The notes beneath the pieces are model-generated. The model saw only the letters and a program-made list of their open reading frames with translations, was not told the origin of the DNA and ran no database searches. Shown here one piece after another: positions 18,142 through 49,748 of a DNA stretch of 59,892 nucleotides (positions are counted from its first letter, which is position 1; each line of letters begins with the position of its first letter). A program made the position numbers and the translations under genes. Source of the DNA: Pseudomonas sp. ACM7 (GTDB taxonomy: Bacteria; Pseudomonadota; Gammaproteobacteria; Pseudomonadales; Pseudomonadaceae); the NCBI RefSeq assembly GCF_004136015.1, contig NZ_CP024866.1, positions 2,426,638 through 2,486,529 of the forward strand, given 5' to 3'.

Positions 18142-18268
18142 AAAGTCCTCATTCACCGCTCATCGGGCGGCGTGGTTCAAGGAAAATGCGGCGGGGAGGC
18201 AACTACGGCAGCATGCGATGATCGACTGCCACAGCTTTCCGGACCACAGAGAAAATTCCGTTTGAAGC

Positions 18269-36859: not shown

Positions 36860-37618
36860 ATGGGCCTGCAACTGGGTTTTGCCGCGCTGCTGTTACTGGT
36901 GATTGCACTGGCGGGGTCGACCTTCCGCATCCTGCGCGAATACGAGCGCGGAGTGGTCTTCCAGCTCGGGCGCTTCTGGCAGGTCAAAGGCCCCGGCCTG
37001 ATCCTGCTGATTCCAGTGGTGCAGCAAATGGTTCGCGTCGACTTGCGTACCGTGGTCCTCGACGTGCCGCCACAAGACGTGATCACCCGCGACAACGTTT
37101 CGGTCAAGGTCAACGCGGTGCTGTATTTCCGCGTCCTCGATCCGCAGAAAGCGATTATTCAGGTTGAAGACTTTCTCATGGCCACCAGCCAACTGGCTCA
37201 AACCACGTTGCGCGCGGTGCTCGGTAAACATGAGCTCGATGAACTGCTGGCCGAGCGTGAGCGGTTGAACATCGACATCCAGCAAGTGCTCGACGCCCAG
37301 ACCGACGCCTGGGGCATCAAGGTCGCCAACGTCGAGATCAAGCACGTAGACCTTAACGAATCGATGATCCGCGCCATCGCCAAACAGGCCGAAGCCGAAC
37401 GGGAACGCCGGGCCAAGGTGATCCACGCCGAAGGCGAATTGCAGGCCTCGGAAAAACTCATGCAGGCCGCCGAAATGCTCGGGCGCCAGCCTGGGGCCAT
37501 GCAGCTGCGGTATATGCAGACGTTGAGTTCGATTGCCGGGGACAAGAGCTCGACCATTGTCTTTCCGCTGCCGATCGAGTTGCTCAAGGGGATGGCGGAT
37601 TTGTCGTCCAAACCTTGA
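36860..37618 (+). CDS. Stomatin/slipin-family (SPFH) membrane protein
   Basis: A 252-residue SPFH protein. It has one N-terminal transmembrane helix (about 4-22), then [42 protein letters not shown], the prohibitin-like domain, and a C-terminal coiled coil ([32 protein letters not shown]). Such proteins form membrane microdomain scaffolds and usually partner with NfeD. The ATG follows the NfeD stop by two bases. Confidence 0.9.
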
Positions 37619-37624
37619 TGGCCC

Positions 37625-37703
37625 CAAAAGATCGCAGCCTTCGGCAGCTCCTACAGGTGTACGCCGCGCCCATGTAGGAGCTGCCGAAGGCTGCGATCTT
37701 TTG
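37625..37703. repeat. REP inverted pair, GTAGGAGCTGCC type
   Basis: CAAAAGATCGCAGCCTTCGG...CAGCTCCTAC and the complementary arm, with a centre of about 18 bp. It lies just after the stomatin gene and may end its transcript. Confidence 0.9.
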
Positions 37704-37822
37704 ACCTTCCCCATAGACACCAACGTCTGGTAACCGCGTCGGAGATTTCCTTCAAGTTGTAGTGGTGTTGGTGAACTTGTTCCGGCCCAAGCCCAGGTCT
37801 AGTCTGGCTTTGTCACTGAATA

Positions 37823-38028
37823 AACGGTGACACGGACGTGCAAGTCCGACGAAACTGTTTAGGGCGCAATTGCCATGGCTCATGCTTTATGGCGGCTGCG
37901 CGCAGGAGATCCTCGGATCTGCTGGGTGTCCTAAACAGTCCCGGTCTTGCACACCTGCGCACGGCCGCCACCCAATTCGCGTGCAAACGAACGGTGACGG
38001 CTCCAAATTACTGTTTAGGGAATTTTAT
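37823..38028 (+). promoter_or_regulatory. Structured 5' leader of the DUF6124-type gene (switch-like)
   Basis: ACTGTTTAGG occurs at 37854-37863 and again at 38010-38019, where it overlaps the ribosome binding site ahead of the ATG at 38029. Its exact complement CCTAAACAGT is at 37930-37939. GTGCAAG (37838-37844) pairs with CTTGCAC (37946-37952), extending the first helix; GTGCAA recurs at 37981. AACGGTGAC is also duplicated (37823-37831 and 37990-37998). A 14-of-16 hairpin (37891-37906 / 37953-37968) is a further pairing in the middle. The two main pairings are mutually exclusive, one hiding the ribosome binding site. A local hairpin CGGAC...GTCCG is at 37833-37848. Confidence 0.6.
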
Positions 38029-38412
38029 ATGTTCAAGGTATCTCCAAATCCGCCAGACAACTCTGGCACCCCGTCCGAAGAATCCTTCGAAGACGAAAAA
38101 CTCAAAGAAGCCGCCGACCGCGCCTTCGCCCACTACTTCCCCCCGACCACCGAAAAACCGCCCAGGCACCGCAAAGGTAACCTCTTCACCGTCGCCCCCG
38201 ATGTCAACACCGAATCCCTTCTGGCCAACGCTTCCGAAGACCTGCTGTCCATCAGCGCCATCGCTGCCAATCTGGCAGACGATGTGGACGGGACGCGGCG
38301 CTCGGTAGCCTTGGCGCTCAGCCGCATGGCCGATGGCGTGCAGTTGCTCGTAGAGCGAGCGCTGGATCATTGGGAGGAGTCGGAGATCATGCAGGCTCGG
38401 GTCAAGGTTTAG
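38029..38412 (+). CDS. DUF6124-type hypothetical protein
   Basis: A 127-residue protein with the start MFKVSPNPPDNSGTPSEESFEDEKLKEAADRAFAHYF, typical of the DUF6124 family found in Pseudomonas. The C-terminal half is helical (NTESLLANASEDLLSISAIAANLADDVDGTRRSVALALSRMADGVQLLVERALDHWEE), with no catalytic motif or membrane segment. Function is unknown. It is expressed alone behind an unusual leader of about 200 nt that can bury its ribosome binding site. Confidence 0.8.
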   Translation: MFKVSPNPPDNSGTPSEESFEDEKLKEAADRAFAHYFPPTTEKPPRHRKGNLFTVAPDVNTESLLANASEDLLSISAIAANLADDVDGTRRSVALALSRMADGVQLLVERALDHWEESEIMQARVKV

Positions 38413-38440
38413 CCGAATAGATTTGTGGTGAATTGACCGC

Positions 38441-38555
38441 CGCCATCGTCGGAACGCCGCCCGGAGCAAGCTCGCTCCCACAGTTGATCGTCGGTGAACA
38501 CAACCTATGTGTACGACTGAGATCCAATGTGTGTGGAGCTTGCTCGCGATGGCGT
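38441..38555. repeat. Degenerate REP pair
   Basis: The left arm (CGCCATCGTC...GGAGCAAGCTCGCTCCCACA) and the right arm (TGTGTGGAGCTTGCTCGCGATGGCG) carry several mismatches, and the centre is about 50 bp. It is more decayed than the other REP pairs in the window. Confidence 0.7.
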
Positions 38556-38604
38556 CAGTGCCGTCGATACACGACTTCTGGAAAACGCGTTTTTTGTTAC
38601 AGAC

Positions 38605-46207: not shown

Positions 46208-48353
46208 TGATCTGCCCCTTCTTCAACGCTTCCATCACGGCGGCTTTCGGGCCGTCGGCAAGAACCTGCCCGCGGTCGATGACGATCAGACGATCCACCA
46301 GCGACAACAGCGAAGCCCGGTGCGTCACCAGCACCACGGTTTTGTTTTCAACCACCGCCGCGAGGCGTTGCTTTAGGCGTTCTTCACCGGTGTTGTCCAT
46401 GGCACTGGTCGGTTCGTCGAGCAGCAGGATCGGCGGGTTGAGCAGTAACGCACGGGCCAGGGCAACGTTCTGGCGCTGACCGCCAGACAGGTTCTGCCCA
46501 CGCTCGCCGACTTGCAGCTCATAACCTTGTGGGTGCAGACGGGCGAATTCGTGGACGCCGGCCAACTCGGCCGCTTGCAGCACCATTTCGTCTTCGACAT
46601 AGCGTGCGCCCGACACGAGGTTGTCGCGCAGGGTGCCGGCCAGCAGCTGAATGTCCTGAGCCACGTAGCCAATGTTGTGGCGCAATTCGCTGACGTCGAT
46701 CTGACGGATATCGACGCCATCCACCAACAGGGCGCCATCGTCCGGCTGGTAGAGGCCTACGAGCAGTTTGGCCAGGGAGCTTTTCCCCGAGCCGCTGCGA
46801 CCGATGATGCCGATCTTCTCGCCAGGCTTGATGATCAGGTTGATATTCTTCAATGCCGCGTTCTGTTGGTTCGGGTAGGTGAAGTTCATCTGCCGGCATT
46901 CGATGGCGCCTTGCAGCACCTTGCGGCTCAGTGGGCGTTCCTCGAAGTTGCGCTCTTGCGGCAGCTCCATCATCTGATCGACCGAGGTCATGGTCACCCG
47001 CGCTTGCTGGTAACGGGTCAGCAGGCCAGACAGCGAGGCCAGCGGGCTGAGAGCGCGGCCGCTGAGCATGTAGCAGGCGATCAAACCGCCCATGCTCAGG
47101 TGACCGTCGATGATCTGGTACACGCCGAAGACGATCATGATCACCCCGGCCAGTTGCTGGATCAGCAAGGTGATGTTCATCGCCAGACCGGAGAGCATTT
47201 TCACCCGCAGCTCGAGGCGGCTGAGGGTGCCGATGGTCTGCTCCCACTGATATTGGCGCTCGCTTTCGGCGTTGTTGACCTTCACTGCATCGAGGCCGGC
47301 GAGGGTTTCGATCAGGCTCGACTGCCGCTCCGCGCCCAGGGCCATGGTTCGCTCCATGGTCGCCACCAGCGGCTTCTGCAAGGCATAGCCGATGAGCAGG
47401 GCAATCGGGAACGCCAGCACTGGAATCCACACCAGATGCCCGCCGAGAATCGCGATGACCATGAAGATCAACAGCGTAAACGGCAGGTCGATCAGGCTGG
47501 TGAGGGTCAGCGAAGCAAGAAAGTCCCGCAGGCTCTGAAACTCATGGATGTTCTGGGCAAAACTGCCGACCCGTGCAGGGCGGTACTTCATGGCCATGCC
47601 GACGATGCGCTCGAACAACGTGGCCGAGATGATCAGGTCGGTTTTCTTCCCGGCCAGGTCCAGGCAGAGGCTGCGCAGGCTCTTGAGGATCAGGTCGAAC
47701 AGGTACGCCCCGGTGATGCCGATGGCCAACACCCACAGGGTCGATTCGGCCTGGTTCGGCACGACGCGGTCGTAGACGTTCATCACGAACAGCGGCGCGG
47801 CCATGGCAATGATGTTGATCAGGAAGCTGGCGGCGATGGCGTCGGCGTACAGCCAGCGCGAACGCTTGAGGGTGTCGCGGAACCACGAGCGCGCGCGCGG
47901 GATCAGCGTGCCGTGATTGACGTCGAATTTGTGCTGGGGTTGAGCGAAGAACACTTTGCCGATGTAGTCATCGGCCAGCAGTTCGCGGCTGACGACACTT
48001 TCGCCGCCATCGCTTTCGCTGAGCAGCAGGCGCGCCTGGTCGTCACCTAGCCAACCCAGCAGGACGGCACTGCGACCATCCTTGAGCAGCAACAGCGCCG
48101 GCATGGCAATCGCCGGGATCTGCTCCAGTTTGCGTACCAGCACCCGCCCTTGCAGACCGGCGCGAGCTGCCGCGCGGGGTAGCAGTTCAACACTCAGACG
48201 CTGCTTGGGCAACGGCAGGCCGGTGGTCAACATCGCGGCGCTGGCCGGTTTCTGATGCAGGGTGCAGAGAGCCAGCAAGCCGTCCAGTAACGGATCGTCG
48301 TGCAGCGCGCGTGGATCATGGATGAGTTGAACTCGACTGACTTCTGATTCCAC
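46197..48353 (-). CDS. lapB: Type I secretion ATPase LapB
   Basis: A 718-residue ABC exporter. An N-terminal degenerate C39-like peptidase domain (about 1-135) lacks the catalytic cysteine, the usual form for giant RTX-type adhesins. Then come six transmembrane helices (about 155-430) and an ATPase domain with Walker A GRSGSGKSS, signature LSGGQ and Walker B ILLLDEP. A GTG start at 48353 (ESEVSRVQLIHDPR) gives the length of LapB in P. fluorescens; another GTG three codons earlier is possible. Confidence 0.93.
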   Translation of the reverse strand: MESEVSRVQLIHDPRALHDDPLLDGLLALCTLHQKPASAAMLTTGLPLPKQRLSVELLPRAAARAGLQGRVLVRKLEQIPAIAMPALLLLKDGRSAVLLGWLGDDQARLLLSESDGGESVVSRELLADDYIGKVFFAQPQHKFDVNHGTLIPRARSWFRDTLKRSRWLYADAIAASFLINIIAMAAPLFVMNVYDRVVPNQAESTLWVLAIGITGAYLFDLILKSLRSLCLDLAGKKTDLIISATLFERIVGMAMKYRPARVGSFAQNIHEFQSLRDFLASLTLTSLIDLPFTLLIFMVIAILGGHLVWIPVLAFPIALLIGYALQKPLVATMERTMALGAERQSSLIETLAGLDAVKVNNAESERQYQWEQTIGTLSRLELRVKMLSGLAMNITLLIQQLAGVIMIVFGVYQIIDGHLSMGGLIACYMLSGRALSPLASLSGLLTRYQQARVTMTSVDQMMELPQERNFEERPLSRKVLQGAIECRQMNFTYPNQQNAALKNINLIIKPGEKIGIIGRSGSGKSSLAKLLVGLYQPDDGALLVDGVDIRQIDVSELRHNIGYVAQDIQLLAGTLRDNLVSGARYVEDEMVLQAAELAGVHEFARLHPQGYELQVGERGQNLSGGQRQNVALARALLLNPPILLLDEPTSAMDNTGEERLKQRLAAVVENKTVVLVTHRASLLSLVDRLIVIDRGQVLADGPKAAVMEALKKGQISVA

Positions 48354-48395
48354 GCTCGGCACTCTTGGCTAACAATTGAACAATGAAGGTTCTGC

Positions 48396-49748
48396 TCAAT
48401 TCATACCGGGCAGTTGAACCTTCGGCTTCACGTCGTTCTGCACAACGGATGCCAACGGTGCGACCACTCCCTGGCTCTTGAGCAACTCGCCCATGGTCGC
48501 CTTGATTCGGTACTGAGTAAATAACTGAATGTTTTTGATCTCCGCCAGGCGACGAGAAGCCGAGAACAGCTCGTTTTCGCTGTCGAGCAGGTCGAGCAAC
48601 GTGCGCTCGCCCAGACCGAACTGCTTCTGATAGGCGGTGCGCACGCTGGTGCTGTGATCGACATACTGCTGGGCGATCGGCACTTGGGCATTGGCGTTGT
48701 TCAAGGCATTCCAGGCCAGACCCAGCTCTTCGTTCAATACGCGCAAGGCGTTGTTGCGAATATCCAGTGCCTGGGTGGACAGGTAGGACTTGGATTCCAG
48801 ATCAGCCTTGTTGCTGCCGCCGGCATACAAATTGAAGCGCATGCGCAACATGGCCTGCCATTCATTGCTGTGACCGTTCTGGCCGTCGAGATCGTTGTCG
48901 GCAGTGCGACCCAATTCGGCATCGAAGCGCGGGTAGAAGCTCGACTTGGCGGCTTCGTACTGTTTCTCGGCAGCGGCGATGTCAGATTCGGCGGAACGCA
49001 AGATCGGGCTGTTTTCCAGCATCTGCGTCCGGGCTTCATTCAGGTTGGCCGGCAACAGCGCCATGAAATCGGCAGGACGCTCCAACTGATCGGGCATCTG
49101 GCCGACGGCGCTGAGGAAGTTGGTCTCGGCGTCAGCCAGGTTGGTCTGCTCGGTGATCAGGTTGTTGCGGGCCTGAGCCATACGCGCTTCGGCCTGATCG
49201 AGGTCGGCGCCGCTGCCCACGCCGCGCTGGGTGCGCAGTTTGATCTGGTCGAAAATCCGTTCGTGGCTCTTCAGGTTCTCGGTTGCCAGGCGTACGAATT
49301 CGCGGCGGGTCAACACGTCGAGATACACCTGAGCGACGGTGAGCGCGGTGCGTTCGGACGTGCCCAGCAAGGAGTAGGCGCGGGAATTAACAGTGGCTTG
49401 TTGACGCCCCACTTCACTCGACGTCGCAAAACCGTCAAAAACCATTTGCGACAACCGCACGCTCGATTCGCTGCGATTCAGGGTTTCCCAGTGATTGTTG
49501 TTGCCAGCGGCACGCGTGGTGACGTTGTCGGTGCCTTCGCGACCATAACCGCCCAGCAGATCGACCCGTGGGAGGTATCCCCCTTTCGCTGCCTTTAACT
49601 GATAATCCGCGGCCAATCGACTGTTAACGCCTGCCTGGATTTCCGGATGGACATCCAGTGCCTGTTGCATGGCCTCCGGAAGGGTCTGCGCCTGAACAAA
49701 ACTGGCGGCTACGGCGAAAGGTAAAGCCTTGAGCAGGTGCAAACGCAT
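48396..49748 (-). CDS. lapE: TolC-like outer-membrane secretion protein LapE
   Basis: A 450-residue outer-membrane channel protein with a signal peptide (ends VQAQT, about residue 20). It has two TolC-type repeats with long periplasmic helices (LGTSERTALTVAQVYLDVLTRREFVRLATENL). It is the first gene of a lapE-lapB-lapC unit, and it is divergent from lapA. It completes the type I channel that exports LapA and holds its N-terminal retention module. Confidence 0.92.
   Translation of the reverse strand: MRLHLLKALPFAVAASFVQAQTLPEAMQQALDVHPEIQAGVNSRLAADYQLKAAKGGYLPRVDLLGGYGREGTDNVTTRAAGNNNHWETLNRSESSVRLSQMVFDGFATSSEVGRQQATVNSRAYSLLGTSERTALTVAQVYLDVLTRREFVRLATENLKSHERIFDQIKLRTQRGVGSGADLDQAEARMAQARNNLITEQTNLADAETNFLSAVGQMPDQLERPADFMALLPANLNEARTQMLENSPILRSAESDIAAAEKQYEAAKSSFYPRFDAELGRTADNDLDGQNGHSNEWQAMLRMRFNLYAGGSNKADLESKSYLSTQALDIRNNALRVLNEELGLAWNALNNANAQVPIAQQYVDHSTSVRTAYQKQFGLGERTLLDLLDSENELFSASRRLAEIKNIQLFTQYRIKATMGELLKSQGVVAPLASVVQNDVKPKVQLPGMN

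Follow-up and report, generated by a model that had tools for sequence, protein, structure and literature searches.

Our analysis indicates that the leader at 37823-38031 of the window (the whole stretch of 59,892 bases that was analysed) very probably encodes a C4-type antisense RNA that is co-transcribed with its target, excised from the message and then blocks translation of the adjacent DUF6124 gene. Rfam named 37885-37975 C4 antisense RNA (RF01695), at 62.7 bits against a cut-off of 45, with the arms of the C4 scaffold at 37890-37906 and 37954-37970. The MFE fold of the C4 region presented the basal stem, the tetraloop hairpin and the antisense-loop hairpin, and it beat 200 of 200 dinucleotide shuffles (z -5.17), as did the fold of the whole leader (200 of 200, z -4.98). 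The surroundings also indicate membership of the class, as the ribosome-binding site of the following gene carries complementary a2-b2 words and a1-b1 words lie upstream; in addition, the GG at the start of the stem (37891) fits the cleavage site of P1. The upstream part matched the c4-a1b1 family (RF03163), which appears in the available part of Weinberg et al. 2010 (PMC2864571), with 24.5 bits and E 2.6e-4, below the cut-off of 46.7. Like c4-a1b1, its hairpins present a1 and b1 words and, since position and words fit, it probably works like that family despite the score.

The original prediction had described a two-state RNA switch of no known class, in which one antisense element pairs with one of two copies of a word. 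Re-reading of the sequence placed all the quoted words where it had put them. ACTGTTTAGG occurs at 37854-37863 and at 38010-38019, one further G extending both copies, and its complement CCTAAACAGT lies at 37930-37939; nowhere else in the window do 10-mers form a direct-inverse-direct set within 250 nt. The predicted pairing energy of 37930-37939 was -14.1 kcal/mol with b1 and -14.0 kcal/mol with b2. The reinforcing pair GTGCAAG (37838-37844) and CTTGCAC (37946-37952), together with the further GTGCAA at 37981-37986, correspond to a1/a' and a2. Both the words and the C4 fold thus support the structured leader; the downstream copy does cover the ribosome-binding site, as b2 (38010-38020) overlaps the Shine-Dalgarno sequence before the ATG at 38029, and translation as the likely controlled step agrees with this placement. 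The repeat of AACGGTGAC in both halves (37823-37831 and 37990-37998) is real but probably incidental: the upstream copy forms part of a hairpin (GTCACTG...CGGTGAC), in its 3' arm, and inspection by eye of other loci revealed no matching role for it. As for the class, the Rfam check proposed for an unrecognised family returned the known family C4. It is the C4 scaffold lying between the words that identifies the element, and this was absent from the original prediction. The reading as an unknown riboswitch was dropped because the stretch is a Rfam C4, an RNA whose duplicated target accounts for the apparent switch.

Coordinates of the features of the C4-DUF6124 unit (window positions)
Feature	Position	Strand	Basis
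Predicted promoter, TTGTTC, 17-nt spacer, TAGTCT	37777-37805	+	Sequence; inference
5' hairpin GTCACTG...CGGTGAC, c4-a1b1 region	37812-37831	+	RF03163 24.5 bits, below cut-off 46.7
Second hairpin, presents a1 (GTGCAAG, 37838-37844)	37833-37848	+	a1 target of P1 equivalently placed
b1 word ACTGTTTAGGG, upstream copy	37854-37864	+	Equivalent to annotated P1 b1
C4 antisense RNA	37885-37975	+	RF01695 62.7 bits, cut-off 45; fold z -5.17
Mature C4 RNA, predicted	~37891-37972	+	Ends inferred from 77-nt C4 of P1 and GG start (PMC5320573, available part)
b' antisense word TCCTAAACAGT, third C4 hairpin	37929-37939	+	Complementarity
a' antisense word CTTGCAC	37946-37952	+	Complementarity
a2 target word GTGCAA	37981-37986	+	Sequence
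b2 target word ACTGTTTAGGG, overlaps Shine-Dalgarno	38010-38020	+	Sequence
DUF6124 target gene, 127 aa	38029-38412	+	PF19619 92.2 bits, cut-off 27

The promoter in the table is proposed from the sequence, since a consensus scan of 37300-38600 returned no promoters. The site sits just upstream of the first hairpin and TCTAGTCTGG was kept in 10 of 11 syntenic rows, the remaining row carrying GCTAGTCTGG (the window is included and two rows are the same genome). Upstream of it, at 37625-37702, there is a near-palindromic repeat (GATCGCAGCCTTCGGCAGCTCCTACA and its inverse), presumably REP-like; similar sequence occurs near loci L020 and L263.

The arrangement of the window locus is that of c4-icd in phage P1. 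The P1 record, from which the a/b lettering was taken, places a1 at 48255, b1 at 48269, C4 at 48343-48419, a2 at 48423, b2 at 48452-48459 and the icd start at 48470, that is, an order of a1-b1, C4, a2-b2 and start codon identical to that of the window. The distance from the start of a2 to the start of b2 is 29 nt in both, and that from the end of b2 to the ATG is 11 in P1 and 10 in the window; the remaining distances differ. As in the P1/P7 C4 (RF01695, compared via the P1 record only), b2 lies at the ribosome-binding site. Unlike it, the window type is chromosomal, present in about 30 copies with a private b word per copy, and its target is DUF6124 instead of icd-ant. According to the available text of PMC5320573, the P1 C4 is excised by RNase P, processed and trans-acting; the parts at hand of PMC8546580 and PMC12197685 term c4 RNA trans-acting and describe C4 binding around the ribosome-binding site, respectively.

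Based on this likeness, we propose that transcription would start just before 37812 and that cleavage at the basal stem would release C4, with RNase P, which acts on the C4 of P1, as the presumed enzyme. On messages still uncut, b2 and a2 would then be bound by the exposed b' and a' words. If the P1 model applies, pairing at b2 would cover the ribosome-binding site and keep DUF6124 off, so that repression of DUF6124 translation by C4 is inferred from the pairing over the Shine-Dalgarno sequence. The a1-b1 words may compete for b' and a' and delay C4 folding or maturation, and such a delay would give fresh transcripts a short translation window. Predicted pairing was stronger for a1b1 than for a2b2 (-34.5 vs -24.7 kcal/mol), and the leader MFE was -93.0 vs -84.9 with the C4 fold enforced. 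These folding predictions suggest that the ribosome-binding site might be free for a time in the fresh transcript; a cis two-state behaviour may also occur within the C4 scheme. About 30 chromosomal units would work in this manner and, as each has its own b word, each C4 would be expected mainly to silence its own gene.

We examined how frequent such units are. The 6.6 Mb genome that carries the window contained 30 C4 matches, 29 of them over the cut-off, and 25 c4-a1b1 matches, seven of which reached theirs. At 30/30 loci an ORF started 45-58 nt after C4. These ORFs comprised 15 DUF6124 genes (one of them, L009, frameshifted), three Bro-N antirepressor-like genes, one DUF3077 gene and 11 others; Pfam gave no match for L014, L018, L019, L021, L022 and L034 (six of the 11 other targets scanned). 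Two of the remaining five, L011 and L017, have a short first ORF (28 and 34 aa) that overlaps the following one, resembling the overlap of icd with ant1 in P1. L016 showed no good a2/b2 match. By coordinates, 15 of the 20 DUF6124 matches in the genome lay directly behind a C4 and five had none. A nhmmer search at these five genes was negative for C4, and Rfam run with permissive settings gave only a weak c4-a1b1-like match of 24.2 bits at L042. Four of the five lack the MFKxTPNPP N-terminus, and one has it, which indicates that C4 linkage belongs to that subtype and not to DUF6124 at large. One DUF6124 gene without C4 (L040) lies beside a PrrF sRNA (156.3 bits, positions 1043-1191 of the locus, 474042-474190 of the genome).

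C4 was present in 138 of the 149 genomes of the genus sampled (137 over the cut-off, own genome included, with at most 27 candidates scored per genome), and three relatives searched singly gave 55, 26 and 35 matches. At the level of the class, it was found in 18 of 274 genomes, again counting our own. A C4 lay within 400 nt upstream of 78 of 80 DUF6124 loci, 45-66 nt before the match start; these are the best 80 of 553, all from records titled Pseudomonas, and they were gathered with the N-terminal pattern M[FI]K[PVN][TS]PNPP of an alignment (A1) whose 13 members are all C4-linked. The two exceptions are L160, whose record begins 150 nt before the gene and holds a partial match, and L210, with none. 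An antisense RNA well studied in phages appears here as a large family of chromosomal loci that is common across the genus. Among the 60 top-scoring C4 of other genomes, the target of many (L044-L047, L058 and similar loci) is a short ORF, often of 52-57 aa and MHALNPSKIRAAAHRAM-like; in 19 of the 26 loci whose first ORF is short, an ATGA overlap marks the start of the second, like icd/ant1. In a 1.5 Mb genome (G409) six C4 matches were found, four of them on a single contig in a stretch of 1.4 kb. The three that were retrieved (L312-L314) have a common b loop and differing a words, the reverse of Pseudomonas.

Multiple C4 copies have precedents. The available text of PMC5320573 describes 'Group 1' C4-like sRNAs of Acinetobacter baumannii in 21 copies, with processing seen by RNA-seq, and cites an earlier prediction of the C4 motif in Pseudomonadales by Weinberg et al. 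The Pseudomonas units resemble Group 1 in their many copies and variable specificity loop. The target is read here as the next gene, whereas the consulted portion of that paper leaves the Group 1 targets open. In the titles and abstract openings searched, mostly outside subscription journals, we found no chromosomal C4 units controlling DUF6124 genes.

We next compared pairing of each C4 with its own targets and with those of other loci. For b'/b2, a'/a2, b'/b1 and a'/a1 alike, the mean own pairing energy beat 20,000 of 20,000 re-pairings in a sample of 30 own-genome loci and 60 loci from other genomes, the latter being the top-scoring C4 of one genome each from 60 genomes and not a random draw. 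Own pairing likewise beat 10,000 of 10,000 re-pairings at 78 DUF6124 loci. Results were similar when runs of at least six Watson-Crick pairs were counted in own and cross pairs. In the 30 own-genome loci, runs occurred at 25 loci for b'/b2 (7.2% of 870 cross pairs), 29 for a'/a2 (10.0% of 870), 24 for b'/b1 (17.6% of 870) and 30 for a'/a1 (25.2% of 870). In the 60 other loci, the corresponding values were 50 (15.3% of 3540 cross pairs), 58 (27.3% of 3540), 39 (13.2% of 3540) and 58 (44.8% of 3540). No own b'/b2 run of six was found at 5/30 own-genome loci and 10/60 others. Taken genome by genome, four genomes had own b'/b2 runs at 24/30, 20/30, 20/25 and 22/29 loci against 56/870, 44/870, 50/600 and 65/812 cross pairs in the same order, counts in which the start of L034 is misplaced. 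Outside the genus, 20 loci hand-picked from 30 matches beyond our own genome showed own runs at 18 (b'/b2), 19 (a'/a2), 19 (b'/b1) and 19 (a'/a1) loci, against 56, 58, 83 and 93 of 380 cross pairs, and at 19 of the 20 an ORF of at least 30 aa started 31-58 nt downstream.

The two words differed in how well they single out a target. The own b2 ranked first by energy at 11/30 own-genome and 24/60 other loci and was in the top three at 22/30 and 44/60; the own a2 ranked first at 0/30 and 1/60. These ranks indicate that the b word discriminates and that the a word is widely shared. Whole b loops were distinct at 30/30 own-genome loci, 38/60 other loci and 57/78 DUF6124 loci. The target of the window C4, written as GTGCAA-N12-35-CTGTTTAGG for its a2-b2 words, occurred once in the 6.6 Mb genome, at the window locus. 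A C4 would thus name its own target by position and a private word, and the units form a set of candidate orthogonal RNA repressors. This yields a simple rule, namely that each C4 targets the gene that follows it, and multi-copy C4 RNAs with open targets, for example those of Acinetobacter, provide material on which to test it.

Comparison of homologous leaders revealed the compensatory changes that the original prediction had looked to covariation for: other words were found, with complementarity kept. At the window site, 11 syntenic rows including the window, judged by a Band_7, NfeD or PMT_2 neighbour, represent 10 distinct genomes, as L108 and L138 are the same genome. A word of the ACTGTTTAGG type was present in seven of the 10 (one with a b1 change) and another word in three. 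Those three retain matching copies, and their DUF6124 proteins are 91-95% identical to that of the window; since the leader outside the words has also changed, exchange of the whole leader fits. Against one relative (G134), the word was kept at three of 11 syntenic loci, the window among them, changed at three with the leader kept (L020, L024 and L034), and at five the leader had diverged. In L020, L024 and L034, respectively, divergence was 0.47, 0.44 and 0.56 at b sites, 0.14, 0.00 and 0.10 at other C4 positions, 0.16, 0.09 and 0.14 at other leader positions and 0.09, 0.09 and 0.12 at third codon positions (Fisher p 3.7e-10, 6.4e-12 and 1.4e-11, the last computed with a misplaced b2). Own complementarity was retained in all three, in runs of 6-11 with G-U allowed. 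Such matched replacement of three short sites in otherwise similar loci offers a natural experiment on the evolution of antisense specificity.

Over all 11 loci compared with G134, b sites, whose limits are approximate because the sites were located via complementarity, differed by 35.5% (137/386), third codon positions by 12.1%, other C4 positions by 12.6% and other leader positions by 22.8%. Divergence of b exceeded that of third positions at 8/11 loci (Wilcoxon p 0.007), of the other leader positions at 7/11 (p 0.021) and of the other C4 positions at 9/11 (p 0.002), an excess that is partly exchange of whole leaders. In 10 leader-conserved pairs from several genome pairs, the difference between b sites (27.4%) and third positions (18.7%) was not significant (5/10, p 0.14). 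A contrast of 47.6% vs 17.9% was set aside as biased, since it had been taken from changed-word pairs alone, 6/10 of the leader-conserved pairs. The word-change set consisted of 23 pairs, namely 21 of 26 flank-match pairs plus L033/L264 and L033/L301 added by hand; L026/L238, L243/L260, L243/L265, L244/L282 (protein identity <=0.56) and L264/L301 were left out. A cross b run of at least six was present in seven of the 26 flank-match pairs.

Three other explanations of these data have to be considered. A leader acting only in cis (riboswitch, attenuator or thermosensor), with b' pairing alternately with b1 and b2 of its own molecule and no free antisense RNA being made, would account for the stronger predicted pairing of a1b1 than a2b2 and for an MFE that favours it over the C4 fold. 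We consider this very unlikely, as the intervening stretch is the scaffold of a known antisense RNA with a stem of its own and the characterised P1 relative is processed and acts in trans, as stated in the available parts of PMC5320573 and PMC8546580. Nor did the metabolite or temperature sensor put forward originally gain support: Rfam hits up to E = 1 at 37780-38060 were C4 and c4-a1b1 only, with no known sensor family among them, and variation is greater in the pairing words than in the C4 stems, which are kept, the opposite of a ligand pocket. A second possibility, a network in which C4 RNAs chiefly target other loci or incoming phages, is unlikely. It draws on the a words common to several loci, on the own b2 ranking first by energy at no more than 11 of 30 loci and on the phage or host targets that the available text of PMC5320573 proposes for the multi-copy Acinetobacter C4; yet the b loops of all 30 own-genome loci are distinct, cross runs of six are confined to 7.2% of pairs and the exact a2-b2 target of the window C4 is unique in the genome.

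We give very little credence to the remaining explanation, in which the locus is a decayed prophage remnant whose C4 and gene are left over from phage immunity regions and no longer work. C4 does occur over the cut-off in three Pseudomonas phage records, phiAH14b (L302), vB_Pae_U10 (L135) and PAJU2 (L303), and in the first two it lies between the integrase and primase genes, a layout that we take to be like that of a P4-like satellite. Three targets of the genome are Bro-N antirepressor-like and one of the 30 has an evident frameshift, which a remnant would also explain. Against this, own pairing has been kept despite word change, C4 was present in 138 of the 149 genus genomes sampled, and none of the four neighbours of the window gene scanned with Pfam is a phage gene (NfeD and Band_7 upstream, PMT_2 and DUF6916 downstream). 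A phage search with the window leader matched one record, over 18% of the query. The isrK family (RF01394) overlaps the c4-a1b1 match in the phage loci L135 and L303 and gave no match at the window locus.

Within the preferred reading of an excised C4 RNA that silences the next gene, we tentatively raise, with our judgement leaning against it, the idea that diversifying selection acts on the antisense address words of the paralogous C4-gene units, of which Pseudomonas chromosomes would hold dozens. A unit would have to silence itself yet escape sister or incoming C4 RNAs, so that b1, b' and b2 would be replaced together; if true, the system would parallel allorecognition or phage heteroimmunity at the level of RNA. 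Cross-reading, defined as b' of one locus reading b2 of another in a run of at least seven, was counted in pairs from four genomes that share loci (31 and 40 loci), with the L034 start misplaced as above, with 2/116 loci left out for having no ORF by the rule and with G048 and G099 represented by the best 30 of 55 and the best 30 of 35 matches. At protein identity of at least 0.90, 3/32 pairs within a genome and 3/29 between genomes cross-read; at 0.75-0.90 the figures were 0/28 and 8/60. Near-identical paralogues within one genome therefore seldom cross-read, and between-genome pairs equally seldom do so, which means that these counts give no signal of selection against cross-silencing within one genome.

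Finally, we analysed the target protein. The DUF6124 model combines an N-terminal part of low confidence with a helical hairpin that is predicted confidently; the mean pLDDT is 76.9, with ten-residue means above 90 at residues 61-110. Fold searches against PDB and viral models yielded no match at E <= 0.001, its profile gave nothing below 0.35 against PDB sequences, NCBIfam and PHROGs gave no family for the window protein, and a plasmid search returned no match to it. When DUF6124, DUF3077 and the unnamed small proteins were tested as one target superfamily, hhalign gave E values of 0.021, 0.066 and 0.12. Elsewhere in the window, a gabT RNA motif (RF01738) was found over its cut-off, with 67.7 bits, at 18187-18248 on the minus strand.
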